From assembly GCA_035541455.1 (NCBI GenBank), contig DATKNH010000045.1:1-37200 (forward strand): a stretch of 37,200 bases of DNA, given 5' to 3'. The notes under the pieces are model-generated. The model was not told the DNA's origin and made no database searches. It saw only the letters and a list, made by a program, of their open reading frames with translations. This stretch comes from Syntrophorhabdales bacterium (GTDB lineage: Bacteria > Desulfobacterota > Syntrophorhabdia > Syntrophorhabdales > WCHB1-27). Positions 19,668 to 35,737 of this stretch are shown piece after piece; within the stretch, counting starts at the first letter, position 1, and each line of letters opens with the position of its first letter. Both the position numbers and the translations under genes were made by a program.

Positions 19668-20678
19668 ATGAAGAAGAGATACCCCTTGCTGATCGACGGC
19701 TATTCCCACGTGGCACCCCCGAAGTACCGCGAGCTTCTGCGCAAAGCAGCTCCCAAGGAGTGCGCCTACATGGTCGACACCTTCCCGCCGCTCTACGACA
19801 TGGAGGCGCGGTTCCGGATAATGGACAAATACGAAGGTCTTGTTCAGGTAATCACCCCCTCCTGGCCGTCGGTTGAACTGGCAGCCCCGAAGCAATCGGT
19901 GGAACTCTCCAAGGCGTTAAATGATGAGATGGCCGAACTGGTCACCAAGTACCCCGACCGATTCCCTGCTGCCGTCGCCTGTTTGCCGATGAACGACATG
20001 CACGCTGCCCTGAAAGAAGCTGATCGGGCCATTACCGAGCTCCGGATGAGGGGCGTCCTTATTTACACCCCTGTAAACGATAAGCCTCTCGATTCACCCG
20101 AGTTCATTCCCCTTTACGAAAAGATGTCTCAGTACAACCTTCCCCTGGTGATTCATCCCATGAGGAATCCTGACTATCCTGATTACAGGACGGAAACAGA
20201 ATCTAAGTACAGAATCTTTAATACGTTCGGCTGGGTGTACGAAACCACCGCGGCCATGACGCGCTTGATTTTCAGCGGGATACTGGAAAAATTTCCCAAC
20301 ATAAAATTCCTCACTCACCATTGCGGCGGCATGGTGCCCTATCTCGCGGAAAGAATACGCCAGTTCCAGGATCTCGGGGAGATGCGATGGGGGCAGAAAT
20401 ACTTTCAGGGACTCACAAAAGCGCCTCTCGATTACTACAAAATGTTTTATGCTGACACGGCCCTGTACGGGAACACGCCCGCCCTCATGTGCGGCCATGC
20501 ATTCTTTGGCGCAGATCATCTCCTTTTCGGCATTGACATGCCCCTCGGCGATATGGAATTCGGAAACAGAAATTACAGGCAGACAATAAATGCCATCGAA
20601 GAGATGAACATAACCGACGAGGACAAAACCAAAATATACGAAGAGAACGCGAGAAAGTTCTACCGCCTGCCGGTTTAA
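19668..20678 (+). CDS. Amidohydrolase-2 (ACMSD/COG2159) family hydrolase or decarboxylase
   Basis: The 336-residue product is a TIM-barrel metal enzyme of the ACMSD family, whose members decarboxylate or hydrate aromatic and muconate-type acids. Metal-site elements are the N-terminal IDGYSH (residues 8-13), VIHPM after strand 5, THHCGG after strand 6 and the strand-8 aspartate in FGIDMPLG. The first position of the usual D-x-H-x-H is tyrosine. Decarboxylase members such as gamma-resorcylate decarboxylase also change that histidine, so a lyase rather than a hydrolase is likely. The start has AAGGAGG eleven bases upstream. It is separated from its neighbours by long gaps, so is probably transcribed on its own. 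Confidence 0.8.
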   Translation: MKKRYPLLIDGYSHVAPPKYRELLRKAAPKECAYMVDTFPPLYDMEARFRIMDKYEGLVQVITPSWPSVELAAPKQSVELSKALNDEMAELVTKYPDRFPAAVACLPMNDMHAALKEADRAITELRMRGVLIYTPVNDKPLDSPEFIPLYEKMSQYNLPLVIHPMRNPDYPDYRTETESKYRIFNTFGWVYETTAAMTRLIFSGILEKFPNIKFLTHHCGGMVPYLAERIRQFQDLGEMRWGQKYFQGLTKAPLDYYKMFYADTALYGNTPALMCGHAFFGADHLLFGIDMPLGDMEFGNRNYRQTINAIEEMNITDEDKTKIYEENARKFYRLPV

Positions 20679-20873: not shown

Positions 20874-22511
20874 ATGCGAGCAGGCAAAAGTGTGGACGAG
20901 CTGCTGCAGACATGTTACGACATTCTCGGACTATCGAAGAATGCGTCCAGACAAGACATTATCAACGCATCCGATACCCTCAGCAGGCGACATGAAGCAA
21001 GCGGGACCACGCGGGGCGAACCGGACAGTCAGGGGTCCTGGGAACGACTAAAGAAAATCACCTGGGCTCGAGACACGCTTCTCGACTACCTGTCCGTCAA
21101 CGAACCGGATACTTCCACAGGAGAGCTCTCACCGGCAGAAATAGATGCCCACGGGCAAGCCCGTGGTACTCAGAGCACGCGATCGCGCAGACAGGTCATG
21201 CATTCACCCACGCTTGAAAGCGTTGTCCTCTGCTGCTCGACGCCGCCCGCAGGAATCTATCTAGCGAGCACGGCGAGCGAGAGGGGGAGGCTCCATGTGG
21301 CTTTGCCACTGGAGGGGGCGACGCGAGCCCCACTGATTGACAAATCAGCAACGACGAGTGATACACCGCCGCCAAACACGGGTGAAGCAACAAGAGCAGA
21401 AAGAACATCTATGCGCTCCTTTCTGGCTCTCGCAGTGGTCCTCCTTTTTCTCCTCGGGCTGATTTTCTTTTACGGTTCCGGCCCGAGTTCACGGTCACCC
21501 GCAAAATCGAGTGCCTCGCCCGGTAAGGATAACCATATGGTCGCTTCGACGGGAGCGACGGATGTGTCGTCAGCGGCAGGAGGACTCATAGCCGGCGGTG
21601 ACACGGCGCAGTTCCTCCAGGAAGCCAAGAGGGCTGTGGTGACGCTCAGGTACCCAGGCGGTCTCGGCTCAGGATTTCTTGTGACGCCGGATGGCTACAT
21701 CGTCACAAATGGCCACGTGGTTCTGGCAGCCAGAGGTACTGCCCAGTTCTCCTCCGGAGAGACGACGGGCGTCGACCTTGTAAAGTTTGATCCCGAGAAA
21801 GACTTTGCTCTTTTAAGAACTGCAGGCTATAGCAATTCTCCTTTTCTCAAATTGGGCGACAGCGCTGCCTGCCGTGAGGGTGACACCGTGTTTGCGATCG
21901 GCTCTCCCCGGGGACTGGAGTCTACTGTCACCAAAGGAATTGTGAGTGCAAAAGATCGAAAGCTTCCTCAGTTCGGTTTTAGGCTGATCCAGACGGACGC
22001 AGCGATAAGCCAGGGGAATAGCGGGGGTCCCTTAATCAATGCCGGAGGGGAGGTCATAGGCATTAACACTATGACGATCGACAAGCGGTTGGCTGAGGGC
22101 CTCAATTTCGCTATTGCTATCAACGAGGTAAAACCTCTGATTGCCTACGGTCAAAGGTTGAGCGCAGCCGAGCGGGCCGAGGAAATTGCTAAGCTCGAGG
22201 CAAGGATTGCAGGCCAGGCGCAAAAGAGAGACATGTCGCTCGAAGATCTGGAACGGGAAGACCAAAGGCAGTACGCCGAATACCAGGAAAAAGTGGAGAA
22301 TCTGAAACGACGGCTCGAAAAAATGCAAAAGAGGGAAGTGTTGGTGCACTGCCTTCTGGAAGCAGGCAAGGAGGCTGAGGAATTATGGAATGAACAATGC
22401 CGGTTGTCCGGCCAGGCGTCCGGATGTAAACTTCCTCCGAGGATTGCCAATCCGCTCAATATCAGCTCCGTGAAAGCCCAGACGGATTGCCTCGACCGAA
22501 ACCCCCAGTAG
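20874..22511 (+). CDS. Degenerate J-domain fused to a membrane-anchored HtrA-like serine protease
   Basis: The product has 545 residues. Residues 10-80 read like a J-domain (CYDILGLSKNASRQDIINA, then RLKKITWARDTLLDYL), but the HPD triplet is HEA (SRRHEAS), so DnaK activation is unlikely. A low-complexity linker runs to residue 180, then one TM helix (LAVVLLFLLGLIFFYG). The protease domain has H281 (TNGHVV), D310 (EKDFALL) and S383 (GNSGGP), a complete triad. A charged coiled coil (LEDLEREDQRQYAEYQEKVE) and four cysteines end the chain; I see no PDZ domain. It probably works in the periplasm with the J-like part in the cytoplasm. The ATG at 20874 has a weak SD. An internal ATG at 21411, just before the TM helix, could give a shorter HtrA-like protein. 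Confidence 0.75.
   Translation: MRAGKSVDELLQTCYDILGLSKNASRQDIINASDTLSRRHEASGTTRGEPDSQGSWERLKKITWARDTLLDYLSVNEPDTSTGELSPAEIDAHGQARGTQSTRSRRQVMHSPTLESVVLCCSTPPAGIYLASTASERGRLHVALPLEGATRAPLIDKSATTSDTPPPNTGEATRAERTSMRSFLALAVVLLFLLGLIFFYGSGPSSRSPAKSSASPGKDNHMVASTGATDVSSAAGGLIAGGDTAQFLQEAKRAVVTLRYPGGLGSGFLVTPDGYIVTNGHVVLAARGTAQFSSGETTGVDLVKFDPEKDFALLRTAGYSNSPFLKLGDSAACREGDTVFAIGSPRGLESTVTKGIVSAKDRKLPQFGFRLIQTDAAISQGNSGGPLINAGGEVIGINTMTIDKRLAEGLNFAIAINEVKPLIAYGQRLSAAERAEEIAKLEARIAGQAQKRDMSLEDLEREDQRQYAEYQEKVENLKRRLEKMQKREVLVHCLLEAGKEAEELWNEQCRLSGQASGCKLPPRIANPLNISSVKAQTDCLDRNPQ
21149..21166. repeat. 18-bp palindrome inside the protease linker
   Basis: CCACGGGCAAGCCCGTGG has perfect 8-bp arms and a 2-base centre. 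It lies in the low-complexity linker region, where the translated sequence is unlike a folded protein and related palindromic words continue to about 21340. It resembles the GC-rich palindromes found between genes elsewhere in the window. Confidence 0.5.
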
Positions 22512-22539
22512 CCTGTCATAATCACCGGCCAGCCTACTG

Positions 22540-22917
22540 TCACCCCAGCATCCTTATCCTGCTTACCATATCCTCAAATCCGAAAGGCTTCGGGAAAAAG
22601 CAGGAGTTAGGAATATCTTCTATGTTGATGCCTATGGCCTTTATTCGCTCAGAGTCACAGCCGCTCATGAACAAGAACGTCACGTTCTCATCTATCTTTC
22701 GCATTTCCAGGGCGGCGGTCAGGCCATCCATCCTCGGCATTACAATATCGGAGACAACAACGGAAACGTTACCTTCGCTTTCCCGGTAGAGTTTTAAAGC
22801 CTCCTCCCCGTCTGCGGCCAGGAGAACCTCGAAGCCCTCTTCATTCAGGGTCTCTTGTAGCAGCAGTCGGAGCGTCTCATCATCATCAACAACAATCACT
22901 CTCGACCCGGACTTCAT
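22540..22917 (-). CDS. Receiver-only (CheY-like) response regulator
   Basis: The 125-residue product is a complete REC domain: VIVVDDDETL acidic pocket, phospho-acceptor in VVVSDIVMPRMDG, serine in FLFMSGCDS and lysine in CFFPKPFG. There is no output domain, so it acts through protein contacts or phosphorelay. I chose ATG 22917, which has GGGGGAG nine bases upstream; a TTG at 22962 would add 15 residues without domain content. No kinase gene is close. The small membrane protein gene at 22994 precedes it on the same strand. It converges on the protease gene, 28 bp away. Confidence 0.85.
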   Translation of the reverse strand: MKSGSRVIVVDDDETLRLLLQETLNEEGFEVLLAADGEEALKLYRESEGNVSVVVSDIVMPRMDGLTAALEMRKIDENVTFLFMSGCDSERIKAIGINIEDIPNSCFFPKPFGFEDMVSRIRMLG

Positions 22918-22993
22918 CTGCCAATACTCCCCCACGTTGCCCCCGCCAATCGGCCGCTTCAAAAGCTCCCGACCCTCTCCTTTTGTCTCCCCG

Positions 22994-23191: not shown

Positions 23192-23436
23192 AAACCTTTC
23201 CTCCCGAAAAAAGCGCAACCTGAGACCCTCGTTGCAGAATCTATGCCCTATGCCTCGCTGCTTTAAATCCTTTCAGATGCTGCTCATTGGGCACCTCACG
23301 GCCGCCAAGCCGTCTCGAAGCGAAGGAGTTTCCAAACGAATGGACATGGTGATACGAAGGTTTTTTCCTACACGTACGGAAACAACGCAGCTCTCTTCAC
23401 CATCCTTCTCTCAGCCATATTTTCTTCAATTTTTTC

Positions 23437-23465
23437 TTGACAAAGGTACCTCCGTACAATAAAAA
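23437..23465 (+). promoter_or_regulatory. Predicted promoter for the TctC/M24 gene group
   Basis: TTGACA (23437-23442), 17 bp, TAAAAA (23460-23465). It lies about 100 bp upstream of the TctC gene in a 376-bp gap (23192-23567) that holds no other recognisable feature except the palindrome at 23493. Confidence 0.45.
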
Positions 23466-23492
23466 GTAGGGGTATCATATTCTGAAACATCG

Positions 23493-23506
23493 TTCCAAAT
23501 ATGGAA
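23493..23506. promoter_or_regulatory. Small palindrome, possible operator
   Basis: TTCCAAATATGGAA has perfect 5-bp arms about 28 bp after the -10 box, where a repressor would block transcription. It recalls the TGGAAAT-type half-sites of IclR regulators, but no IclR gene is in the window. Confidence 0.3.
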
Positions 23507-23567
23507 TGAAACAGCGATCCGATCGGCTGGAGAAAGACGCCCCTCTTACATTCGGGAAAGGAGCATC

Positions 23568-24542
23568 ATGGACTTGCTGAGAAATAGAATACTTCTGACT
23601 GCTGTTTTTATGGCCGTGATGTGCGGTTTTTCGGCTGCGCAGGAATATCCTGCGAGGCCTGTAAACGTGACCGTGGTTTATGCGGCGGGTGGCACCATGG
23701 ACACCACTGCCCGCGCTCTCGCGGGACCTGCGGAGAAACTCCTCGGTCAGCAGCTTGCGGTTTCAAACGTGGGCGGCGCAGGCGGTGCAGTGGGACTCGG
23801 CCTCATCGCAAGACAAAAAGCCGATGGTTACCACCTGGGAGTGTGCAGCCACGCGGGGCTGATTTTCGTTCCCCACGTACAGACCGTGACCTACAAGCTT
23901 GATGACTTCGTCCCGATCATGCATTACGGGTTCTCTCCGAATGCGATCGTCGTCAGGTCAGACTCTCCCTGGCGCACTCTGAAAGAGCTGGTCGAGTACG
24001 CACGCCAAAACCCGAAGAAAGTGACCTACGGCACAGGTGGAACAGGTTCTCCCATGCATCTGGCAATGGAGTTTATAGGTCGCCAGGAAGGCATTCAGTG
24101 GACGCATGTGCCCTACCAGGGCGCAAACCCTGCAATGATAGCGCTCCTCGGAGGCCACATTACCGCTGAGTCAGGCAGCACCGAATGGATGCCCCACGTA
24201 AAGGATGGAAAGCTGCGCCTGCTCGCCGCCCAGGGAGACAAACGGATGAAGGCGTTTCCCGATGTGCCGACCTTGCGCGAGCTGGGCTACGATTTCACCA
24301 CTGGTGCCTACTTCATGTTTATTGCTCCGAAAGGAACGCCTGACGCGGTAGTGACAAAACTGGATGCCGCGTTACACAAGGCCATGGATGAGCCGAAATT
24401 CATTGATCTGCTTGGAAAACTGGAAATTGAAGTCGCCTACAGAAACGCTGCAGATCTAAAAAAATACCTGGAAGAAAACAACGCAAGGCTTCTGAAGCTT
24501 TTCGCTGAGAACAAGATACCGCGTTTGCAGGAAAAGAAATAA
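23568..24542 (+). CDS. TctC/Bug-type periplasmic solute receptor
   Basis: The 324-residue product has a signal peptide cleaved after SAAQ or nearby. The mature start EYPARPVNVTVVYAAGG and the segment VPYQGANPAMIALLGGHI are hallmarks of tripartite tricarboxylate transporter receptors. These bind carboxylates and pass them to TctA/TctB channels. No TctAB pair is adjacent; the only one in the window lies 11 kb downstream. It leads a plus-strand group of enzymes and thus probably marks their substrate as a carboxylate. The SD is AAAGGAG. The ligand cannot be told from sequence. Confidence 0.9.
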   Translation: MDLLRNRILLTAVFMAVMCGFSAAQEYPARPVNVTVVYAAGGTMDTTARALAGPAEKLLGQQLAVSNVGGAGGAVGLGLIARQKADGYHLGVCSHAGLIFVPHVQTVTYKLDDFVPIMHYGFSPNAIVVRSDSPWRTLKELVEYARQNPKKVTYGTGGTGSPMHLAMEFIGRQEGIQWTHVPYQGANPAMIALLGGHITAESGSTEWMPHVKDGKLRLLAAQGDKRMKAFPDVPTLRELGYDFTTGAYFMFIAPKGTPDAVVTKLDAALHKAMDEPKFIDLLGKLEIEVAYRNAADLKKYLEENNARLLKLFAENKIPRLQEKK

Positions 24543-24588
24543 CGCGTAATCTCGACGATCTATCCGTCAAAGATGAAGGAGAATACCC

Positions 24589-25722
24589 ATGCCATTCACA
24601 GAGACTGAAAAAAAGCGCAGACAAGAGGCCCTTCAGAAACTTCTCGCTGAGAAAGAGCTGCAGGCACTGGTGCTCATCGGCAACATGACGGTCGGCCACA
24701 GCTATCACGGCGACTTCAGGTGGTATACCGATAATCACATATTCTTCCAGCGGCAGGTGGCAGTGCTCTTTCCTGGGATTGACCCGATACTTTTCAACTA
24801 CTCAGATTTTTCGAAGCGAGCTTCAATGGAGCGGTCGATGGTGAAGGATGTGCGCGTGAGCACCAATTTCATCGCCGACACGGTGACTCTTATAAAAGCA
24901 CAAGGCGCAGCAAAAGGGAAAATCGGAGTCAACTTTGAGATGCTGCCCACAACGTGGTATCGCTACCTTCGCACCGAGCTCCCGGATGCCCAGTTGCTGG
25001 ATGTGCACGAGGATATCATGGCGATCCGCTTCCAGCACAGTGACGAAGAAATTGAGATTTACCGTAAAGGAGCGGCCCTGGCGGATCAAGGTTTCCAAGC
25101 CGCCCTTAACATGATACGGCCGGGAGTGACTGAGTACGAAATTGTGGCTGAGATAGAGTACGTTTCGCGCCGGCAGGGTACTGACGAACATTTCACGCTG
25201 ATCGGCTCCGGGCAGTTTTCATTCAACATGGAGCGGTCACTGCCGCTTCCTGTCAGCCCTTCTGAAAGAAAAATTCAGGCCGGCGAAAGTATTGTTCTTG
25301 AGATCACTCCGCGTTACAAGGGCTACTGGACGCAGCTCGTTCGCATGGTCAACGTTGGGAAGCCCAACGAAGAATTGCGAAAGATGCAAACCGTGGCCAG
25401 GGACGCCATTCGGCGCGGCATCGAAGAGATACAACCCGGGAGAAGAGTGAAAGATGTGGCTCTCGCCATGCAGGCATACATCGCCAAAACGGAGTTCGTG
25501 CCCAGGGCGCCTTTCGGTCATGTCTGCGGTATCGACCTGGTAGAAGAAAGGGTCAGCGTGGACAACGAGAGTCTCTTCATCCCAGGCTATGCAGCGATTG
25601 TGCATCCCCTGGTGCAGACAGCGGACGGCAAAAATGTGATATTCTGGGGCGAGACCTATCTCGCCACAAGAGAAGGATACGAGCGGCTCCACACAACGGG
25701 CGACGATCTCATAACGATTTAA
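24589..25722 (+). CDS. M24 (creatinase / prolidase-fold) protein with altered metal site
   Basis: The 377-residue protein has the two-domain creatinase/prolidase plan, with an N-terminal domain to about residue 150 and a pita-bread domain after it. The histidine of the third ligand region is present (GHVCGIDL) and the last glutamate probably too (WGETYLATREGYERL). The two aspartates that normally hold the dinuclear metal appear replaced: SIVLEITPRYKGYWTQLVRMV has E and Q where D and D are expected. Creatinase works without metal, so this may be an amidine or C-N hydrolase rather than a peptidase. It follows the TctC gene by 46 bp with an AAGGAG SD, most likely in one operon. Confidence 0.8.
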   Translation: MPFTETEKKRRQEALQKLLAEKELQALVLIGNMTVGHSYHGDFRWYTDNHIFFQRQVAVLFPGIDPILFNYSDFSKRASMERSMVKDVRVSTNFIADTVTLIKAQGAAKGKIGVNFEMLPTTWYRYLRTELPDAQLLDVHEDIMAIRFQHSDEEIEIYRKGAALADQGFQAALNMIRPGVTEYEIVAEIEYVSRRQGTDEHFTLIGSGQFSFNMERSLPLPVSPSERKIQAGESIVLEITPRYKGYWTQLVRMVNVGKPNEELRKMQTVARDAIRRGIEEIQPGRRVKDVALAMQAYIAKTEFVPRAPFGHVCGIDLVEERVSVDNESLFIPGYAAIVHPLVQTADGKNVIFWGETYLATREGYERLHTTGDDLITI

Positions 25723-26010
25723 GTCGCAATTGCGAGCATTCGGGCAGTGATAAGTTGGTCTTTTGCCGACTGGATATTGTCGACTCAACTTCGCTGCCGG
25801 AAGAACTTTTCCTCGGGTACCCGCTTGCGGGTGCGGCGACGTGAAGGACGGATTGGGACACCCTTTGGGTAGACGGCAGATTGAACTGTAGTAGCGGGGC
25901 ACCCGCGAGCTGCCACATTGATGTTCCGCGGGTCGCGCGGGGCGGAGCAGCGAAGGAAACAGTGTTTCGGCAGCGGCCCGCGTTGGGCATGAGTTCCAAG
26001 AGGTGACACT
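25723..26010. repeat. Gene-free gap with GC-rich palindromes
   Basis: No gene is seen here. CGGGTACCCGCTTGCGGGTG (25814-25833) is a palindromic unit almost identical to one at 9691-9708. A second, GGGGCACCCGCGAGC with a matching CCGCGGGT, spans 25896-25932. They split the putative operon between the M24 and epimerase genes. Confidence 0.55.
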
Positions 26011-26967
26011 ATGATCATGATTACAGGTGGTATGGGTTTTCTGGGCGGTTCGTTGGCGAAGCTTTTGTGTGAGCAGGGTGAGCGGGTACTCCTCACTATC
26101 CACAAGCAGAAAGAACTCGCCCCTTTTCTTGAACAATACCGGGACAAGAAGCTGTTCGTGGCCCCCCTCGATATCACAGACCTGGACGCAGTCGAGAAAA
26201 CAATCAAAGATCATAGCGTCAAGAGCATTATTCATGCGGCCTCGTCGTACGAGGCAAAGGGAAATCTCTACGATGCAATGCGGGTCAACGTGCTCGGCAC
26301 GATCAATATACTGGAAGCATCCGCCAGGACGGGTATCGGCAGGATCAGCGCGATCAGTACGGAAGCAGTCTACCAGGGCATAAAACAGAAAGAGCCATTG
26401 AAAGAAGAGTTGTTGCTCAGCGTAGAATCGGACCGCTACGTACCCGGGACCAAGAGGGCCGAAGAGAACATTGCCCTGCTCTATGCAGCAAAAGCGGGCC
26501 TCAATGTGGCCCTGATACGGGCCAGCAGAATCTACGGGCCTCTCTTCGCGGGCGTGAGGAGCCCGATGCACCGGATAGCCCAGTCTGCAGTGGACGGAAC
26601 GCCGTGCGAACTGCCGAACATTGACGAGGCCGAGGGGCATGACAATATCTACGTCAAGGACTGCGCCCGCGGTGTCATCATGATACACACCGCGGATAAG
26701 TTGAAGCACCGCATCTACAATCTCGGCATGGGGAAACTGACCACTTTCGGAGAGATAAGGGACGCGGTCTTGAAAGTGGCACCTGGAGCAAAGATTATCC
26801 TGGGTAAAGATCTCGGAGAGATCACCGCAACTAAATCAGCCCTCGACATCAATGCATGCCTCGATATAGGCCGAATCCGGGAAGAGCTGGGTTTTGGACC
26901 TGAGTACGACATTGACAAAGGCATGGCTGCCTATGTCACATGGCTCAAGGATAAAATCTATCTGTGA
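26011..26967 (+). CDS. NAD-dependent epimerase/dehydratase family protein
   Basis: The 318-residue protein is an extended SDR: N-terminal NAD(P) loop MITGGMGFLGGSL, DITDLD adenine-ring region, and catalytic tyrosine-lysine in YVPGTK, with the serine of ISTEAVYQ upstream. HDNIYVKDCARGVIM is typical of nucleotide-sugar epimerases, but many catabolic reductases share it. It sits with amidohydrolase, cyclase and SDR genes rather than sugar genes, so a small-acid or keto substrate is likelier. The SD AGAGGTGA precedes ATG. The next gene starts 41 bp on. Confidence 0.85.
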   Translation: MIMITGGMGFLGGSLAKLLCEQGERVLLTIHKQKELAPFLEQYRDKKLFVAPLDITDLDAVEKTIKDHSVKSIIHAASSYEAKGNLYDAMRVNVLGTINILEASARTGIGRISAISTEAVYQGIKQKEPLKEELLLSVESDRYVPGTKRAEENIALLYAAKAGLNVALIRASRIYGPLFAGVRSPMHRIAQSAVDGTPCELPNIDEAEGHDNIYVKDCARGVIMIHTADKLKHRIYNLGMGKLTTFGEIRDAVLKVAPGAKIILGKDLGEITATKSALDINACLDIGRIREELGFGPEYDIDKGMAAYVTWLKDKIYL

Positions 26968-27008
26968 CACGCGCGGCAAGGCCGTAATGAAAAGGAGCTG
27001 AGAGCACT

Positions 27009-27695
27009 ATGGTTATAAACCACGATATCATTGATCTGTCCCGTCCGATCCACACCAATATGCCGGTCTTCCCGGCCATAACCAAAACATATCTCGGTAT
27101 ATTCACGGCGCACAAGGATTCGGTAAAGCCGAACGGCGTCTCCCACCAATCGAACATTCTGGTAATGGGTGATCACGCAGGCACGCACATCGACGCGCCG
27201 CTTCACTTCAACCCTGCAGGTACGGGAATCGACCAGATGCCCGTCGACCTTTTGGCCGGAAACGCTATCATGCAGGATTACTCGGATAGAAAGCCCGGCG
27301 AGTCAGTAACCGCGGATGACGTGAAGACAAGACTGGAACGTTATCGTATCAATCCCAAAGACCTTACCTACATTCTCTTCCGCACAGACGCAGCTCCCCA
27401 CTACGGCACCGAAGCTTACTGGAGCCACTACCTCGAGATCCGAACTGATGCGGTAGAATGGATGCTCGATGAGGGCATTCTGATATTCGGCGTGGACGCT
27501 TCGACTGTAGATCACGCAGGCGATCGATCAACACACATGCTCATGAGGAAAAGGCCGTGCTACCATATAGAAAATCTGGTCAATCTCGACAGGCTTCCAC
27601 AGGACCGGATGTTTACGTTCATCTGCGCGCCCTTGCTCATGAGAGATTCGAGTGCGTCACCCATCAGGGCGTTTGCGCTTGTTTCCCGAAAATAA
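27009..27695 (+). CDS. Cyclase-family (COG1878, kynurenine-formamidase-like) hydrolase
   Basis: The 228-residue metal hydrolase shows the family signature GDHAGTHIDAPLHF (H-x-G-T-H-x-D) near residue 57, the catalytic-site ligands of manganese or zinc, and a later IFGVDASTVDHAG typical of the fold. Family members include arylformamidase and hydrolases that open lactams or isatin. Reaction here unknown; a ring- or amide-opening step would fit the amidohydrolase and SDR neighbours. SD AAGGAG is slightly far (12 bp) from ATG. The amidohydrolase gene follows after 53 bp. Confidence 0.85.
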   Translation: MVINHDIIDLSRPIHTNMPVFPAITKTYLGIFTAHKDSVKPNGVSHQSNILVMGDHAGTHIDAPLHFNPAGTGIDQMPVDLLAGNAIMQDYSDRKPGESVTADDVKTRLERYRINPKDLTYILFRTDAAPHYGTEAYWSHYLEIRTDAVEWMLDEGILIFGVDASTVDHAGDRSTHMLMRKRPCYHIENLVNLDRLPQDRMFTFICAPLLMRDSSASPIRAFALVSRK

Positions 27696-27748
27696 CTGTA
27701 GCGCATGACTGGAAAGATCCTACGCTGAACCAAGGGGGAGGAGGACGC

Positions 27749-28720
27749 ATGATCATTGATACGTATTCTCATCATATCTCAGCGACCAATATCGAAATAA
27801 TCGAAAAGGGGCGAAGGGCTCGCCAGGCAGCCGACAAGGAGGGCTCGAAGAAATTTCCATGCCCTGTGGAGAACGCGGACCCTGAGGCACGGCTCCGCAT
27901 TCTGGACAAGTATGGTATCGACGTGCAGGCAGTCTGTCTCACGATGGAAACCCTGGACGGCTTCGATACGGACACAGCGGCCGAAATATGCACCCGAGCG
28001 AATAATGACAATTACACCTTGTGCAAGGCGCATCCCGACAGATTCGTCAATATCTGCGCGGTCTCGCTCCTTGACATGAAGAGGGCCATGCATGAACTCG
28101 AGCGGTGCATCAATGAATTGGACTGCCGCGCGGTCACGGTGGCCACAAATCAGCGTGGGAAAGGCCTCGATTCCGTTGAGTACTTTCCTTTTTACGAGAA
28201 AATCTCCAAACACGATCTCCCGCTCTTCCTGCATCCCTGCAACTGGGAATCGTATCCTCTTGCTGATGAGAGCCAGTGGATGTTCATGTCCCGTTTCGGA
28301 TGGCCGTTCGATTCGACGCTGGCAGTCTGGAGACTCATTTTCGGAGGAGTCATGGACCGCTACCCTGCCCTCAAAATAGTGATGCATCACCTTGGAGCTA
28401 TGTACCCTTATTTTGCCGGCAGGATTGATTCCGGTATGGTGGCCCTCAGGAAAAAGCTTCCGAGGGATTTCTCTGAATACTGGAAAAATATTTACGCAGA
28501 CGACGCTCTCAGTGCCGGGCCTCCTGAGGCATATGCCTGCGGCTATGCTTTTCTGGGTCCGGATCACGTTTTGTACGGGACGGATTACCCGTTCGGCCCT
28601 GAAGCGGGCGAGCGGTTTGTGAGGGCTAACCTGGAGGGTCTCACATCTCTTAAGATCCCTCCTGCCGACATGAATAAGATACTCTCAGGAAATGCAAAGA
28701 AGCTTCTCAAGATAGCCTGA
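27749..28720 (+). CDS. Amidohydrolase-2 (COG2159) family enzyme
   Basis: This 323-residue TIM-barrel enzyme belongs to the same family as the product of 19668-20678. Metal-site segments are IDTYSHH at the N terminus, LFLHPCNW after strand 5, MHHLGAMYPYF after strand 6 and GTDYPFG with the strand-8 aspartate. The first histidine of D-x-H-x-H is again tyrosine. Relatives hydrolyse, hydrate or decarboxylate unsaturated and aromatic acids. The ATG at 27749 has GGGGGAGGAGG upstream; a longer frame to 27557 would overlap the cyclase gene. It is part of a tight plus-strand series. Confidence 0.85.
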   Translation: MIIDTYSHHISATNIEIIEKGRRARQAADKEGSKKFPCPVENADPEARLRILDKYGIDVQAVCLTMETLDGFDTDTAAEICTRANNDNYTLCKAHPDRFVNICAVSLLDMKRAMHELERCINELDCRAVTVATNQRGKGLDSVEYFPFYEKISKHDLPLFLHPCNWESYPLADESQWMFMSRFGWPFDSTLAVWRLIFGGVMDRYPALKIVMHHLGAMYPYFAGRIDSGMVALRKKLPRDFSEYWKNIYADDALSAGPPEAYACGYAFLGPDHVLYGTDYPFGPEAGERFVRANLEGLTSLKIPPADMNKILSGNAKKLLKIA

Positions 28721-28759
28721 GAACGAACACGATCAGCAGAAATAGTCGGGAGGTAAACC

Positions 28760-29524
28760 ATGGGAGTGCTGGATGGTAAAATCTGTGTGATCACCGGAGG
28801 CGCAGGCAGCCTCGGACTTGCGAGCGCATCCCTCTTTCTGAGCGAGGGTGCCAAAGTCATGCTGGTCGACAGCAACGAGGAGTCGCTCGCTCGCGCCGTC
28901 GATTCCATCAAAGCGCACAACGATACCGTAGACAGCACAAAGGCCGATGTGTCCAGCTTCCAGGAGACACAGAATTACATCAATCGCACAGTCGCCAGAT
29001 GGGGCAAGATCGATGTTCTGTTCAGCAACGCGGGACACAGCGGTACCACCAGCCCGATTACAAACTATCCGGAAGATATCTTTGATACGGTTATGGCGGT
29101 CAACGTTCGCGGCTCGTTCCTTGCCTGCAAGTACGGTCTGCCCCAGATGAAGGACGGCGGCAGCATTATCATTACCTCGAGCATCATGGGTGTCACATCA
29201 AGCCCGAACTCCTGCGCATATGTAACATCCAAGCACGCGCTCGTGGGGCTCATGCGCACAGTCGCAAAGGAAGTTGCGGTACGGCGGATCAGGGTTAATG
29301 TCCTCGCGCCGGGTCCGATCGATAATGCCTTCCAGACTGAGATTGAAAGACGGATCAGTGCCGTTACCGGGCAGGACGGCACCGCGATGATCAATGCGCG
29401 CATCCCCCTCGGGCGACACGCAAGACCCGAGGAAATCGCGCGCCTTGCGCTTTTTCTCGCTTCAGATCAGAGCAGTTTTTCAACGGGGAGTATTTTTCTG
29501 GCCGACGGAGGCATGAACGCTTAA
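28760..29524 (+). CDS. Short-chain dehydrogenase/reductase
   Basis: The 254-residue classical SDR has TGGAGSLGLAS (cofactor loop), LFSNAG, catalytic serine in ITSSIMG and Y-x-x-x-K in YVTSKHALVG, ending in FLADGGMNA. Residues after the second strand (VDSNEE) have an acidic start, favouring NAD over NADP. It should oxidise an alcohol or reduce a ketone of the substrate handled by the preceding enzymes. GGGAGGT precedes ATG. It is last in the series and convergent with the minus-strand TctC gene, 51 bp away. Confidence 0.9.
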   Translation: MGVLDGKICVITGGAGSLGLASASLFLSEGAKVMLVDSNEESLARAVDSIKAHNDTVDSTKADVSSFQETQNYINRTVARWGKIDVLFSNAGHSGTTSPITNYPEDIFDTVMAVNVRGSFLACKYGLPQMKDGGSIIITSSIMGVTSSPNSCAYVTSKHALVGLMRTVAKEVAVRRIRVNVLAPGPIDNAFQTEIERRISAVTGQDGTAMINARIPLGRHARPEEIARLALFLASDQSSFSTGSIFLADGGMNA

Positions 29525-29575: not shown

Positions 29576-30556
29576 CTACTTGCCCACGTAGAGACCCAGC
29601 TCCTTCAGAATAGGAATACCGACAGCCTCCTGTTTCCTTATTTCCTCCCTGACAAATTCAGGTCCGCCGAACCTTGGGGCTTCACCAACCCTCTCGATGC
29701 CCTTCCTTGTCTCCGGGTCCTCAGTTATTTTCTTGCACGTCTCCGCAAGCACCTTCCTGATTGGCTCCGGGGTATCTCTGCGCACGTAGAGCCCGAAGAA
29801 GGCCGGCAGAACCGCATTCGGAAAGCCGAGTTCCACCGCAGTCGGCACGTCGGGGTGATCTTTGAATCGTTTGTCGGTATAGAACATCAGGTACCTCGCT
29901 TTCCCAGCCGCGACTTGCTCTGACATCGCCCCATAGGCCAGGCTCGCCGCATCAACGTGTCCGCCCAGCAGCGCCACGAGCGCCTCAGCCGTTCCTTTGT
30001 ACGGCACATCGATGGTCGCGATTCCCGCCTTGCGAAATATAACCATCCCACTCATGTGAAGTCCTATCCCGCGCCCAACGTGCGCCCATTTGAACTGGCC
30101 CTGGGCTTTCCTCGCGTAATTCAGGAGGTCATCGAAGTTCTTAAAAGAAGAGTCTCCCTTCACTACCATGCCCATCTTCAGCTCCACGAAGTTTGCAAGT
30201 GGTGCAAGGTCATCCGGATCGAACGGGACTTTCTGAGTCTTGGTCGTGGTTGCAAAAAAGACATGTGCACCCCAAAAGACTTTATATCCGTCAGGCTTCG
30301 AACTGATCACATCAGCCGCGGCGAGTGCACCGCCGGCACCGGGTTTATTGACCACCACCATGGGCTGGCCAAAATATTTTGACCCGACGTCCGTGATAAC
30401 CCTGAGGAGAATGTCTGTAGTGCTGCCCGGCGCGTAGGGGCAGATGATCTCCAGAGGCTTCTCAGGATAAGGAGCTGCCGAGACCAGTCCAGTCCAAAAA
30501 ACTCCGGTAAAAAGAAGGACCGCTACACACGTGAGGAAGAGACCCCTTTCTCTCAT
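29576..30556 (-). CDS. TctC/Bug-type periplasmic solute receptor (orphan)
   Basis: The 326-residue product starts with a signal peptide (MRERGLFLTCVAVLLF) cleaved near SAAP, and continues PYPEKPLEIICPYAPGSTTD and DVPYKGTAEALVALLGGHV, both hallmarks of the family. The ATG at 30556 has GAGAGG; a longer frame has no better start. It is the only gene on the minus strand between two plus-strand catabolic groups and has its own promoter. With no TctAB at its side it must share a channel, possibly that of the 34121-37200 system. Confidence 0.9.
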   Translation of the reverse strand: MRERGLFLTCVAVLLFTGVFWTGLVSAAPYPEKPLEIICPYAPGSTTDILLRVITDVGSKYFGQPMVVVNKPGAGGALAAADVISSKPDGYKVFWGAHVFFATTTKTQKVPFDPDDLAPLANFVELKMGMVVKGDSSFKNFDDLLNYARKAQGQFKWAHVGRGIGLHMSGMVIFRKAGIATIDVPYKGTAEALVALLGGHVDAASLAYGAMSEQVAAGKARYLMFYTDKRFKDHPDVPTAVELGFPNAVLPAFFGLYVRRDTPEPIRKVLAETCKKITEDPETRKGIERVGEAPRFGGPEFVREEIRKQEAVGIPILKELGLYVGK

Positions 30557-30585
30557 GCGATTACCTCTCCATTGGGTGATTCCAG

Positions 30586-30614
30586 AAGATACCAGTACGG
30601 CCATTTCCCGTCAA
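30586..30614 (-). promoter_or_regulatory. Predicted promoter of the minus-strand TctC gene
   Basis: On the minus strand TTGACG (30609-30614), exactly 17 bp, TATCTT (30586-30591), about 30 bp before the ATG at 30556. It is divergent from the promoter at 30649. Confidence 0.55.
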
Positions 30615-30731: not shown

Positions 30732-31610
30732 GTGAACCCTATATTGAGCGAAGCGTACGATCTGCACGTGCATTCGGCTCCCGATGTACTCCCAAGGAAG
30801 ATGGACGATGTTGAAATGGCCCAGAGGATCATCACATCCGGCATGAAAGGATACGCCATTAAGTCGCACTACTTTTGCACTTCAGAACGTGCGCAGACGA
30901 TCCGAAAGATATTTCCCAGCTGCAATGCCATCGGCACCATCACGTTGAACAGCTCGGTCGGTGGCATCAATCCCATGGCTGTGGAGATGGCCGGCCGCTC
31001 GGGGGCCAAGCTGGTCTGGTTTCCGACCGTTGATTCGCAGCACGAGCTTGCCCATCTTGCCAGCAGCCCGTCCCAGAAACTTCCCTACTGGGCACAGATT
31101 AAGGAACAGATGAAGGCCGAGGGAATTGTTGCGCCTACCATCTGCATTCTCAAAGACGGCACATTGAAAGATGAGGTCTTCAGCGTCCTCGATATCATTG
31201 CCCGCTTCAACATGATCCTCGCCACCAGCCACGTTTCCAAGGAGGAAGCCTTCGCCCTTGTAAAGGCAGCAAAAGAACGCAAGGTGGAGCGGATCATCAT
31301 CACCCATGTGGATTTTCCATCCACCTTTTATGCGGTCGAGGAGCAGAAGGAAATGCTCAAAAGCGGTGCATTCGTCGAGCACTGTTACACCACACCGGCA
31401 ACCGGCAAAGTTGCATGGGACGTAGCCATCGGGCAGATAAGGGCTATCGGTGCTGATCGCGTGGTGCTTGGCACCGATCTGGGGCAGACTACCGGTGTTT
31501 ATCCGGATGAAGGCCTGGCGCTGTATGCGGAAAAGTTGCTGCAAAACGGCTTCTCCGAGTCGGAGGTGAGGACGATGATCGTCAAGAACCCGACCTCGCT
31601 TGTCGAGTGA
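30732..31610 (+). CDS. DUF6282-type metal-dependent hydrolase-like protein
   Basis: The 292-residue protein begins with a PHP/amidohydrolase-like metal motif, AYDLHVHSAPD. Further candidate ligands are in IIITHVDFPS, FVEHCYTTP and the late aspartate of VLGTDLGQT, so a TIM-barrel hydrolase with metal is likely. It resembles proteins annotated DUF6282, whose reaction I do not know. The start is GTG with ATGGAGGT upstream. It opens the group that continues with galC, gntR and galB, separated from them by a 327-bp structured gap. A lactonase or isomerase feeding the 4-oxalomesaconate step would suit the context; this is conjecture. Confidence 0.75.
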   Translation: MNPILSEAYDLHVHSAPDVLPRKMDDVEMAQRIITSGMKGYAIKSHYFCTSERAQTIRKIFPSCNAIGTITLNSSVGGINPMAVEMAGRSGAKLVWFPTVDSQHELAHLASSPSQKLPYWAQIKEQMKAEGIVAPTICILKDGTLKDEVFSVLDIIARFNMILATSHVSKEEAFALVKAAKERKVERIIITHVDFPSTFYAVEEQKEMLKSGAFVEHCYTTPATGKVAWDVAIGQIRAIGADRVVLGTDLGQTTGVYPDEGLALYAEKLLQNGFSESEVRTMIVKNPTSLVE

Positions 31611-31653
31611 GCTTAGGAGGTAATGTCACGAGTTTTAGAAAGCTAGAACTGAA

Positions 31654-31884
31654 TTTTTATCACAGATGTACACAGATAGAAGCGAAGAGAGATAAAGACT
31701 GATGGCGTACTGGTGTCCAGCATTGTGATACCACGTCAATGCTGGACACACCTCAGCGCTGCGCGCAGGTCACCGCACCGGAGGTGCTGAGGGTTGACCG
31801 GAGGTGGCGTCTTATCACAACTCCGGTCAAGAAATATTCATCCGCTCTTATCTCTTTTCTGATCCGCTCTTATCCGTGATAAAG
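31654..31884. repeat. MITE-like element with terminal inverted repeats and three hairpins
   Basis: The ends TTTTTATCACAGAT (31654-31667) and ATCCGTGATAAAGA (31871-31884) are inverted copies matching at 12 of 14 positions. Inside are three stems: 31713-31725 with 31737-31749 (13 bp, perfect), 31751-31757 with 31786-31792 (7 bp), and 31794-31801 with 31823-31830 (8 bp). ATCCGCTCTTATC is directly repeated at 31840 and 31862. It fills the gap between the DUF6282 and aldolase genes. No protein frame is convincing. Confidence 0.65.
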
Positions 31885-31937
31885 AATGTATCTTGTGTGA
31901 GTTTCGACAGAACCGCTTAGGTGAAGGGAGATATCAG

Positions 31938-32663
31938 ATGGAGCGATATATCGTCAGAACCATTCCGCGCTGTGATGAAAAGACATGCAGCGAGTTTGCG
32001 CGGCTCGGGACAGCGACCGTCTACGAGGCACAGGGACAAACCGGGCTTCTCAACGACAGTATGAAGCCAATACAACAGGGACAAGCAGTCTGCGGCCCTG
32101 CTGTTACAGTGATCTGTCCTGCCGGTGACAACCTTATGGTTCACGCCGCCGTGGAGTGCTGCCAACCAGGCGATATCCTGGTTGTAACCACAGAAGGGGA
32201 ATCGAACAAGCACGGGATGATTGGCGAGTTGCTCGCCAAAAGCTTAATGAAGCGAGGAGTCAAAGGACTCATCATGGACGCCGGTGTGCGGGACACAGCG
32301 CAACTCCGAGAGCTTGGTTTCCCTGTTTGGACCGCGGCCGTTGTCTGCACGGGCACTACCAAGAACAAGGCCGGCTGGGTTAACGCCCCGGCTGTCTGTG
32401 CCGGCGCGCTTGTCGAACCCGGTGATCTAATAGTCGCCGATGATGACGGCGTCGTGGTCGTCAAGCGACCGGATATCGCCCATGCTCTCGAGCAATCGCT
32501 GGCCCGGGAAAAGAAAGAGCAAGGTACGACAAAGAAGATCGAAGAGGGGCAGCTCGGCATTGATTTCTACGGTTTCCGCGAAGCGCTCGCTAAACTGGGC
32601 GTGCGTTATTACGACACGCTGCAAGATGCACGTCGCTCAGCGAGTGGCGAACAGGAGAAGTAA
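31938..32663 (+). CDS. galC: 4-carboxy-4-hydroxy-2-oxoadipate aldolase (GalC/LigK, RraA fold)
   Basis: The 241-residue protein matches HMG/CHA aldolases over its whole length: TATVYEAQGQTGLL, AVTVICPAGDNLMVHAA, IGELLAKSLMKRG (pyruvate-site loop) and MDAGVRDTAQL with the catalytic arginine and metal-binding aspartate, then CAGALVEPGDLIVADDDGV. It would cleave 4-carboxy-4-hydroxy-2-oxoadipate to pyruvate and oxaloacetate using Mg or Mn. RNase E inhibitor RraA lacks the extended C-terminal arm present here. I chose ATG 31938, preceded by GAAGGGAG; a longer frame begins in the repeat element. Its stop overlaps the GntR start by one base (TAATG). A galB-like gene follows, which completes the pair of reactions. 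Confidence 0.85.
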   Translation: MERYIVRTIPRCDEKTCSEFARLGTATVYEAQGQTGLLNDSMKPIQQGQAVCGPAVTVICPAGDNLMVHAAVECCQPGDILVVTTEGESNKHGMIGELLAKSLMKRGVKGLIMDAGVRDTAQLRELGFPVWTAAVVCTGTTKNKAGWVNAPAVCAGALVEPGDLIVADDDGVVVVKRPDIAHALEQSLAREKKEQGTTKKIEEGQLGIDFYGFREALAKLGVRYYDTLQDARRSASGEQEK

Positions 32664-33304
32664 TGCGGGACCAGACTAACCAGGTCTACCATTCGTTGCG
32701 ACAGCGCATACTCGACGGACTTTTTCGTCCGTCTGAAAGCCTCACAGAGGTAACCCTCGCCGCAGACCTGGGTGTGAGCCGCGCTACAATCAGGAAAGCT
32801 CTCTTGAAGCTCGAGAGCGAGAACCTTGTGGTGATCGAAGAAAACAAGCGGGCAAGGGTTCGCTGGTTCTCCGTCGAAGAGGTGATGCAGTACCTGGAGG
32901 TAAGAGAATTACTGGAGGGCTTCGTAATCCGTCAGAGCGTGCCGAATCTCTCCACTGCAGACCTGAAGGAGATGCGCGCGATCCTCTCCGAGATGAAGAA
33001 ATGTCTCAAGGCGCACGATCTTCTGCAGTACTCTCAGAACAACTGGCGATTTCATGATGTTGTCTATCGCGTCTGCCCTAACCGTCCGGCTGTCGACATG
33101 GTGATGGCCATCAAGAATCAGTTGAAGCGGTACAACATCAAGACCATGCTCGTGCAGGGGCGTGGAGAGGATTCCCTCGACGAACACAGCAAGATCCTCT
33201 CCGCCCTGGAGCGGCACGACGCGGATACAGCGGAGGCGCAGATGAGGCGTCATATCTCCAACCTGCGAAGAGTGCTGCGGGCGCACTTTGAGCTCTTGCT
33301 GTGA
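32663..33304 (+). CDS. GntR-family regulator (FCD subfamily)
   Basis: The 213-residue product has an N-terminal winged helix with recognition helix DLGVSRATIRKALLKLE, then an FCD domain. Likely ligand- or metal-binding histidines are in NNWRFHDVVYR, DEHSKILSALERHD and MRRHISNLRRV. It is translationally coupled to galC by a TAATG overlap and precedes galB, so it should regulate this catabolic group in response to its substrate. Its operator may be the palindrome at 30669-30686. There is no separate promoter that I can see for this gene. Confidence 0.9.
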   Translation: MRDQTNQVYHSLRQRILDGLFRPSESLTEVTLAADLGVSRATIRKALLKLESENLVVIEENKRARVRWFSVEEVMQYLEVRELLEGFVIRQSVPNLSTADLKEMRAILSEMKKCLKAHDLLQYSQNNWRFHDVVYRVCPNRPAVDMVMAIKNQLKRYNIKTMLVQGRGEDSLDEHSKILSALERHDADTAEAQMRRHISNLRRVLRAHFELLL

Positions 33305-33356
33305 CCTCGAAGCGACCGCGAAGCCGGGAGGCAAATAAAGTTCAAGGAGAAGGAGT

Positions 33357-34085
33357 ATGGCGGAAGACCAAAAGAAGACTGTGTTAGTGGTGAGCGCGCA
33401 TTCGGGTGATTTTGTATGGCGGGCGGGCGGCGCAATAGCGCTCTATGCGAGCCGCGGCTGGAGAGCCAAGATCGTCTGTCTCTCTTTCGGAGAGAAAGGA
33501 GAATCAGCCAAGCTCTGGAAAGAGGGAGGCATGACTCTGGAGCGGGTAAAGGAGTTGCGCAGGGAGGAGGCGCTGAAGGCTGCGGCAGTATTGGGAGGTG
33601 AAATAGAATTTCTCGACTGCGGTGACTATCCGATGCATTTCACTGCCGCGCACCTGGATCGACTCGTTGATATTTACAGATCCCTCAAGCCGGAATTTGT
33701 TCTGACGCATTCCTTGGAAGATCCGTACAATTTCGATCACCCTATGGCGGCGCATGTTGCGCAGGAAGCACGGATCGTCGCGCAGGCACACGGTCATAAG
33801 CCCGGTGGAGCAGTGCTCGGCGCTCCCCCTGTTTTTCTCTTCGAGCCGCACCAAACGGAGCAGTGTAACTGGAAACCCCAGGTTCTGCTGGATATCACAC
33901 CGGTCTGGGACAAGAAACGAAAGGCGTTTGAAACATTGGAAGCACAGGAATATCTCTGGGAGTATTACACCCGCGTGGCGCTGAACCGCGGCGTACAGGC
34001 CGCCCGAAATTCAGAGAAAAAAAACATCAAGTATGCCGAAGCGTATCAGCGCGTCTTCCCGCAGGTGACCGAGGAACTTCAGTGA
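33357..34085 (+). CDS. galB: GalB-type 4-oxalomesaconate hydratase (PIG-L/LmbE family)
   Basis: The 242-residue protein is a PIG-L-fold zinc enzyme. The start VLVVSAHSGDFVWRAGG has the A-H-S-x-D variant of the usual AHPDD site, as I recall for Pseudomonas GalB. CLSFGEKGESAKLW, HSLEDPYNFDHPMAAH and LWEYYTRVALNRGVQA are also GalB-like, and the length agrees. GalB adds water to 4-oxalomesaconate to give 4-carboxy-4-hydroxy-2-oxoadipate, the substrate of the GalC-type aldolase encoded two genes upstream. That pairing is the strongest reason for this call against a sugar deacetylase. SD AAGGAGAAGGAG. The TctC gene follows after 35 bp. Confidence 0.85.
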   Translation: MAEDQKKTVLVVSAHSGDFVWRAGGAIALYASRGWRAKIVCLSFGEKGESAKLWKEGGMTLERVKELRREEALKAAAVLGGEIEFLDCGDYPMHFTAAHLDRLVDIYRSLKPEFVLTHSLEDPYNFDHPMAAHVAQEARIVAQAHGHKPGGAVLGAPPVFLFEPHQTEQCNWKPQVLLDITPVWDKKRKAFETLEAQEYLWEYYTRVALNRGVQAARNSEKKNIKYAEAYQRVFPQVTEELQ

Positions 34086-34120
34086 TTGTTTCAAACGAAG
34101 TAAAAAGGAGGGACTTTACC

Positions 34121-35092
34121 ATGAATTATTTCAAAATCCTGCTATTGGGAGTGCTCGCGGTGGCCGTTCTTTGCGCTGGCTACGCTTCTGCACAGACGTA
34201 CCCCACAAAGCCGATCCACATCATCGTCGGCTTTGGACCGGGCGGCGTGGCAGATCTCACCTGTCGCGTAGTGGCACAGAAACTCTCAACCCAGCTCGGC
34301 CAGCAGGTGTTGATTGAAAACAGGCCCAGCGCAGGAGGTATAGTCGCCGCTGATGCAGTTGCAAAGGCAGCGCCGGATGGCTACACGCTACTCCTTCTGT
34401 CGAACGGCAACGCAGTAAGTGCCTCGCTTTTCAAGTCTCTCCCGTATGATCCAGTCGCCGACTTTGCCCCTGTATCGACACTTGGCTTCTTCGACATAGC
34501 AATGATTGCAAAAGGGGACGCCAAGTGGAATTCCGTCAAAGATGTCCTCGCCTACGCCAAAGCAAACCCCGGGAAATTGAATATCGGCACGATCAACATC
34601 GGCAGCACGCAAAACCTGTCCGCTGAGCTCTTCGTCAGCATGACCGGTATCAACGCTACCATCGTGCCGTACAAGGGCAGCCCTGATGTGCTGGTCGCAC
34701 TCAGAGGAAATGATGTACAGCTCGCCTTCGACATGCTGGCGCCAATTATTTCCCAGTTCAAGAGCGGTGTGGTCAAGGTTATCGCCATCACGTCGGAGCG
34801 GCGCTTCTCCGGTCTGCCCGACATCCCGACCATCGCCGAGAGCGGTGTGCCAGGCTACCAGGCCTCGTCCTGGAATGCTATTGCTGCCCCCGCGAAAACA
34901 CCCCGTGCGATCATTGACCGTTTAAACAAGGAGATCAATACTGCTCTGGCGGCAGCGGAGGTCAAGAGCAAACTTCTTGAACTCGGGGTCACGGCGCGCG
35001 GCGGCACGCCCGACGCTCTGAAAACACTTCTCACCTCGGATATCGCAAAGTGGAGAGGCGTCATCGAAAAAGCAAAGATCGAGAAACAATAG
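34121..35092 (+). CDS. tctC: TctC receptor of the tripartite tricarboxylate transporter
   Basis: The 323-residue protein has a signal peptide (ILLLGVLAVAVLCAGYASAQ, cut after SAQ), then TYPTKPIHIIVGFGPGG and VPYKGSPDVLVALRGNDV, the family's N-terminal strand and ligand-loop segments. The ATG at 34121 has AAGGAGG; a longer frame would start in galB. It should deliver its carboxylate ligand to the TctB/TctA channel encoded just downstream. Together with galB and galC it suggests a tricarboxylate or similar polycarboxylate as substrate. A 180-bp gap with palindromes separates it from tctB. Confidence 0.9.
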   Translation: MNYFKILLLGVLAVAVLCAGYASAQTYPTKPIHIIVGFGPGGVADLTCRVVAQKLSTQLGQQVLIENRPSAGGIVAADAVAKAAPDGYTLLLLSNGNAVSASLFKSLPYDPVADFAPVSTLGFFDIAMIAKGDAKWNSVKDVLAYAKANPGKLNIGTINIGSTQNLSAELFVSMTGINATIVPYKGSPDVLVALRGNDVQLAFDMLAPIISQFKSGVVKVIAITSERRFSGLPDIPTIAESGVPGYQASSWNAIAAPAKTPRAIIDRLNKEINTALAAAEVKSKLLELGVTARGGTPDALKTLLTSDIAKWRGVIEKAKIEKQ

Positions 35093-35190
35093 GGCGGTAG
35101 TAACACAGATGATGCCTTTCGACACCGATTCGATTTCAAGATGGATACCGAGGCGAGCCGAGGCCTGGCTGCGCGGTACCAGTTGTTCTA

Positions 35191-35235
35191 GCCGGGCACC
35201 CGCGGCCTGCCAGGCTCTTCACCCGCGGGTGGCAG
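35191..35235. repeat. GC-rich palindromes between tctC and tctB
   Basis: GCCGGGCACCCGCGGCCTGCC and, 15 bases later, ACCCGCGGGTGGCAGG form stems with one another (CCTGCC/GGCAGG; the ACCCGCGGGT block is itself a perfect palindrome). Same family as at 9691 and 25814. It could trim the transcript and lower tctBA output relative to tctC, as often needed for receptor excess. Confidence 0.5.
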
Positions 35236-35272
35236 GAGTAAGAGCAGGCCGAAGGGCAACGGAGGTAAGCGC

Positions 35273-35734
35273 TTGAAGGCGAATTGGTGTAGGTCCAAGG
35301 ACTTCTGGTCCGGCGCCATCTTCCTCGGCGTGGGTGTAGCATTCGCAGCCTACGGCAGACACTACCCCATGGGAACAGCGATGCGCATGGGTCCCGGCTA
35401 TTTCCCTACCCTGCTCGGAAGCCTACTTGCCTTGATCGGCCTGATCCTTGTTATACACACCATGCTGAGGCCGGGCCCCGGTGTGGGGCGCCTGGCCTGG
35501 GGCAAACTCGTCTTGGTCACTCTATCCAATGTACTCTTTGCGCTGATGCTTCGCAGACTCGGACTCGCCTGCGCACTCGTCCTGCTCGTACTGGTGAGTG
35601 CCTATGCCAGCAAGCGCTTCCGATGGCCGGTCGCGCTTGCCCTCGCAGTCGGACTCGCCGCCGGCTCTTCCATAATTTTTGTCTGGTTGCTGGGCTTGCC
35701 CATACCCATCCGCGGCACTTGGCTCGGAGGTTGA
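35273..35734 (+). CDS. tctB: TctB small membrane subunit of the TTT transporter
   Basis: The 153-residue protein has four hydrophobic segments: FWSGAIFLGVGVAFAAYG, FPTLLGSLLALIGLILVI, LVLVTLSNVLFALML and VALALAVGLAAGSSIIFVW. MGPGYFP is the typical sequence between the first two. TctB is the poorly conserved 4-TM subunit paired with the large TctA subunit. It starts at TTG with GGAGG eight bases upstream. tctA begins three bases after the stop, so the two are coupled. Confidence 0.85.
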   Translation: MKANWCRSKDFWSGAIFLGVGVAFAAYGRHYPMGTAMRMGPGYFPTLLGSLLALIGLILVIHTMLRPGPGVGRLAWGKLVLVTLSNVLFALMLRRLGLACALVLLVLVSAYASKRFRWPVALALAVGLAAGSSIIFVWLLGLPIPIRGTWLGG

Positions 35735-35737
35735 GAA

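Follow-up and report, generated by a model that had tools for sequence, protein, structure and literature searches.

The group of six genes led by a TctC receptor at positions 23568–29524 of the window (the whole 37,200-nucleotide stretch of DNA analysed here) is a real operon with a conserved core, and its combination of genes, all from known families, is new as far as could be searched. Probably this is an operon with which a soil or sediment bacterium takes up and degrades an organic acid; inducible catabolism of such an imported acid is likely, and the chemistry involved is a guess. The set exceeds chance, as is seen both from neighbours that are conserved in other copies and other genomes and from a common upstream regulatory block. 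In routine annotation M24 proteins are called peptidases and TctC proteins tricarboxylate receptors; the conserved pair of genes described below, taken together with its operator and regulator, makes a short, testable gene set for finding the substrate.

Composition and borders of the unit

The window is one contig (C45) of a 3.9-Mb genome (G000) that comprises 173 contigs and is 97% complete. Open reading frames and Pfam matches place all six named genes where the initial annotation had put them, on the forward strand and with short gaps save for one of 288 bp. The unit proper probably also takes in a further amidohydrolase gene (AH1) and an IclR operator, and with these the features are as follows:

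19668–20678, forward strand: AH1, an Amidohydro_2 protein of the ACMSD superfamily (Pfam 6.2e-34)
23428–23521, forward strand: promoter/operator block, with TTGACA at 23437–23442 and a palindrome, TTCCAAATATGGAA, at 23493–23506 that is probably an IclR site
23568–24542, forward strand: TctC-type periplasmic receptor (Pfam TctC 3.5e-69) with a signal-peptide-like N terminus
24589–25722, forward strand: M24/creatinase-fold hydrolase (Pfam M24 1.2e-29, Creatinase_N 2.7e-9) with an altered active site
25723–26010, no strand: gap of 288 bp with dispersed repeats
26011–26967, forward strand: epimerase, an extended SDR of epimerase/dehydratase-like type (Pfam 6.9e-29)
27009–27695, forward strand: cyclase-family (COG1878) metal-dependent amide/lactam hydrolase (Pfam 3.9e-29)
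27749–28720, forward strand: AH2, an Amidohydro_2 protein, ACMSD/decarboxylase-like (Pfam 2.4e-35)
28760–29524, forward strand: classical SDR (Pfam 1.2e-59), YxxxK present as YVTSK; final gene of the unit

The start of AH2 is best put at the ATG at 27749, upstream of which lies a strong ribosome-binding-like sequence (GGGGGAGGAGG), and with this start the intergenic gaps are 46, 288, 41, 53 and 39 bp. The long gap was considered as the site of a lost or hidden gene or as a promoter break, and both were rejected, as it is instead occupied by dispersed repeats: a 76-bp repeat has 95% identity to a spot on another contig (C135), and a 40-bp unit recurs at six other places. Because the corresponding gap between the M24 and epimerase genes can measure anything between a few bases and about 190 bp in other copies, it does not resemble a functional border.

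Upstream, evidence for including AH1 comes from a sister species (G001), the sole same-genus relative among 148 genomes related to that of the window. There an AH1 orthologue (90% identity) is followed directly by the TctC orthologue (90%) and an M24 fragment (83%), so that AH1 probably headed the ancestral unit and the adjacency of TctC and M24 is retained; the contig concerned (G001:C10) stops within M24 after its first 64 residues, and the remainder is absent from this 79%-complete assembly. In the window, the interval between AH1 and TctC (20874–22962) holds a trypsin-like gene, with an N terminus that by eye is J-domain-like, and a reverse-strand response regulator.

Downstream, positions 30732–37200 hold the series DUF6282, LigK/GalC aldolase, GntR, GalB, TctC, TctB and TctA, in which the GalB protein matches 5cgz (1.2e-102). 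This block is fully collinear in another genome (G010:C62, 57–88% identity), which has no copy of the window-type epimerase, and in part in the sister species; it is thus a separate unit, and it follows that the receptor-led group ends at 29524. A single operon running on into the LigK and GalB genes was accordingly rejected, given that the block stands complete and alone in G010. Its DUF6282 protein could be a hydrolase that forms 4-oxalomesaconate from an imported compound, for example pyrone dicarboxylate; a single-sequence structure model of it (pLDDT 37) was too poor to use. Between the two operons lies a convergent TctC gene (29576–30604, reverse strand) that has relatives at 53–58% identity in the window genome (C124) and in the sister species (G001:C145).

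Conservation of the gene neighbourhood

That the six genes might move together, as the initial annotation proposed should be checked, holds for M24 with the epimerase (and in some copies the cyclase) and for TctC with M24; AH2 and the SDR were not found in the other copies, and the complete six-gene set was observed once. Within the window genome, seven of the nine M24 homologues and all three cyclase homologues have a TctC gene no more than 6 kb away; stretches this close to a TctC gene make up about 10% of the genome at most. One of these cyclase genes adjoins TctC (G000:C109), while at a second locus (G000:C35) cyclase, M24 and epimerase lie downstream of TctC, TctB and TctA, with identities to the window proteins of 63, 32 and 47% respectively. 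The same three genes occur in the sister species (G001:C160; 67, 33 and 46%), followed there by genes for a xanthine-dehydrogenase-type enzyme (FAD, 2Fe-2S and Mo subunits), so that in this genus (g1) three of three copies of the epimerase adjoin both M24 and cyclase. Elsewhere, an M24 at 49% identity to that of the window sits with a TctC gene between two divergent Mo-hydroxylase operons (C129; L022 4522–15044). The window itself contains no Mo-hydroxylase gene.

Among the 148 related genomes this epimerase was not found outside the two of the genus. A profile of it run over 395 genomes of the phylum matched two genomes, the second being G237, and in a set of 77 genomes comprising G237 and its relatives it was present in 12, all belonging to one family (f79). 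In every assessable genome of that family (11 of 11) the gene order is M24, epimerase and a TRZ/ATZ-type amidohydrolase, which in G237 scores above the cut-off of the PRK06151 model; the twelfth epimerase copy, of 35% identity and located at a contig end, was left out of this count. Five of the f79 copies have genes for the FAD and 2Fe-2S subunits of a Mo-hydroxylase nearby, and four have TenA. A search of plasmids for the cassette gave distant matches only (cyclase at most 36% identity), no annotated neighbourhood that was opened carrying the set, and a scan of genome contigs returned the sister locus G001:C160 as its sole match.

The conserved core is M24 plus epimerase, joined by the cyclase in the genus of the window and by a different amidohydrolase in f79, and this pair, recurring in two distant families, looks like a genuine degradation module. 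In the M24 tree the window protein clusters with M24s that are not epimerase-linked (support 99/98), implying that the modules have been shuffled. The state “epimerase-linked” has to change three times or more along this tree, which means that the pairing either arose repeatedly or was lost in some lines.

The control region and the IclR locus

The 94 bp at 23428–23521 align with the region preceding an IclR gene elsewhere in the genome (contig C116) with a score of 69.5, where the maximum for 500 shuffled pairs was 21.5 and that for other loci of the same genome 23.5. The palindrome occurs at exactly two places in the genome, and the 24-mer that contains it (23488–23511) likewise has two exact copies, with a further copy carrying three mismatches before the IclR orthologue (75% identity) of the sister species. 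It was the palindrome that led to the C116 gene, and the identification of that gene as an IclR regulator (Pfam PF01614, PF09339) came afterwards. The locus (G000:C116:117800–131418, equivalent to L029 2800–16418) lies on a single strand throughout, and the regulator gene is followed by those for a fumarate-reductase-like flavoprotein, two enolase-superfamily (MR_MLE) proteins, two M24s and two TctCs, and by TAXI and fused DctM transport genes.

From this shared element it is natural to infer that the C116 regulator acts in trans on the window operon, presumably by binding the palindrome. In the sister species the palindrome is absent between AH1 and TctC, so IclR control of the unit may be recent or lineage-specific.

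The M24 active site

The pita-bread fold and the Creatinase_N domain are both present in the window M24 (Pfam; Foldseek 5e-26 on a model of pLDDT 75), and this model resembles prolidase, EutD and creatinase to a similar degree. The dinuclear metal ligands of Pyrococcus prolidase, D209, D220, H284, E313 and E327, align with E238, Q249, H311, H339 and G354 respectively, so that one ligand in five is retained and the ligand set of a metallopeptidase is lacking; L220 stands opposite the PHG-motif histidine of prolidase. The epimerase-linked M24s share invariant residues of their own (E238, T240, G245, Q249, H311, D316, H339 and P340), and G354, [ED]355 and T356 are also retained except in G431, which diverges near there.

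Since so few of the prolidase ligands are kept and a distinct invariant set is present, the protein is probably not a peptidase, and that assignment, for which four of the five ligands have been lost, was rejected as the most likely one. Creatinase and EutD are known to function without the peptidase metal pair. With its clearly altered active site, the conserved M24–epimerase pair points to a family of small-molecule hydrolases. Triple runs of M24 genes occur together with D-2-hydroxyacid dehydrogenase genes at two other loci (L023 8931–18036 and L024 6016–10628), where one M24 type has a different active-site pattern.

The other enzymes and the receptor

The epimerase has the N-terminal NAD-binding GxxGxxG motif (TGGMGFLGG; Rossmann GGxGFLG), and its nearest solved relatives are nucleotide-sugar dehydratases and epimerases (3.5e-23). 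The catalytic YxxxK is missing, and module members have [YF][IV]P[GA]TK instead, in which the Tyr is replaced by Phe in most f79 copies. In the cyclase the metal motif HxGTHxDxPxHF is intact (as DHAGTHIDAPLHF) and the Pfam score of 102 bits far exceeds the cut-off of 23.1. AH2 is similar to ACMSD and to the gamma-resorcylate and 5-carboxyvanillate decarboxylases (1.8e-30 to 2e-23). Near the N terminus, at the position of the HxH motif, it reads DTYSH and AH1 reads DGYSH, so that the first His is Tyr in both; indeed this His is missing in all eight family members compared, being mostly Tyr or Phe. As regards the receptor, the window genome has about 50 TctC genes above the curated cut-off in 3.9 Mb, a large expansion.

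Proposed role and alternative readings

The reading that we favour, and consider fairly probable, is an IclR-controlled operon that breaks down an imported organic acid by hydrolytic opening of a C–N (or C–O) bond and by redox steps. A small organic acid would be captured by TctC and delivered to a TctAB permease whose genes lie outside the unit. Inside the cell, C–N (or C–O) bonds would be opened by two enzymes: the cyclase-family hydrolase, and the M24 working in the manner of creatinase or ectoine hydrolase instead of as a metallopeptidase. Redox or isomerisation of the product would fall to the SDR and the epimerase-like protein, and the ACMSD-like amidohydrolases may decarboxylate or hydrate an intermediate. 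The IclR protein encoded at C116 would switch the operon and also control its own (M24, TctC, enolase-superfamily, TAXI/DctM). The enzyme functions, the order of the steps, the substrate and the binding of IclR are what we infer; the initial annotation had likewise suggested carboxylate uptake, C–N or ring opening and redox steps, and had found no described pathway to match, just as we found none that fits, and a literature search for this gene combination returned nothing relevant. Since the core is seen beside molybdenum-hydroxylase genes at other loci, our tentative first guess at the substrate class is an aromatic or N-heterocyclic acid. A fuller version, distinctly speculative, would place M24 and epimerase at the centre of a degradation route not yet described. 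A molybdenum enzyme would first hydroxylate an imported N-heterocyclic acid, which the M24 (a creatinase-fold hydrolase working without metal) and the epimerase (lacking the catalytic Tyr) would then process; the amide hydrolase would be exchangeable, from the cyclase family in one lineage and of the TRZ/ATZ type in another.

Other readings deserve weighing. The molybdenum-hydroxylase neighbours that recur beside the core would be left unexplained by a sugar-acid pathway, in which the epimerase would be akin to uronate or aldonate dehydrogenases, the cyclase and M24 would act as lactonases and the enolase-superfamily proteins of C116 would be acid-sugar dehydratases or cycloisomerases. The solved relatives of the epimerase fit this idea, as do the two MR_MLE genes in the putatively co-regulated operon, and one report (PMC13390454) links a TTT system to alginate use in Vibrio. 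The epimerase does also match D-erythronate dehydrogenase, but weakly (37.5 against a cut-off of 325); it has no YxxxK, the unit contains neither a sugar kinase nor a KDG-type aldolase, and we regard the pathway as unlikely. Rather unlikely, too, is a lignin-type aromatic acid pathway in which AH1 and AH2 would be aromatic decarboxylases feeding the 4-oxalomesaconate hydratase and CHA aldolase downstream. The decarboxylase matches of AH2 and the presence of GalB and LigK homologues 2–4 kb downstream speak for it; yet the downstream block is self-contained, G010 having it in conserved form but lacking the receptor-led genes, the convergent TctC separates the two blocks, the first His of HxH is wanting throughout the AH family, and no LigB-type dioxygenase was found in the window genome.

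It is also conceivable, though very improbable, that there is no single pathway at all, and that independent scavenging genes have gathered behind one promoter. Other copies do lack AH2 and the SDR, the M24 lineages vary between copies, and the genome holds some 50 TctC genes, with numerous paralogues in every family; against this, the M24–epimerase pairing is held across two families, and the set of cyclase, M24 and epimerase in all three copies of the genus.

Comparison with known systems

The preferred reading, catabolism of an imported organic acid, can be set beside several described systems. TctCBA transporters comprise three proteins, of which the unit encodes the TctC receptor only; the TctB and TctA genes at 35273–37200 are part of another operon. 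With kynurenine formamidase and isatin hydrolase, which are among its best PDB matches, the cyclase shares the metal motif, but it scores 75.3 bits against the KynB cut-off of 223 (TIGR03035) and has no tryptophan-pathway neighbours. The amidohydrolases share with ACMSD and the Amidohydro_2 decarboxylases the fold family and most of the ligands (H162, H213, D279), differing in the first His of HxH.

For the M24, prolidase and aminopeptidase P (M24B) are the nearest matches in sequence and fold, with the single shared ligand noted above. Creatinase is matched in fold by profile (3e-29) and by model (TM 0.68) at about 21% identity, and here again the window protein differs in not keeping the PHG histidine of prolidase. 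The ectoine catabolic clusters, in which ectoine hydrolase opens the ring (PMC5924519), offer a likeness of organisation: an M24 fold (EutD/DoeA) acts on a small ring compound, deacylase and redox steps follow, and the whole is linked to a transporter. Unlike them, the unit has no EutE, aminotransferase or ectoine transporter, and its M24 scores 80.1 bits against an NCBIfam DoeA cut-off of 575. Creatinase and ectoine hydrolase serve as working analogues for the window M24.
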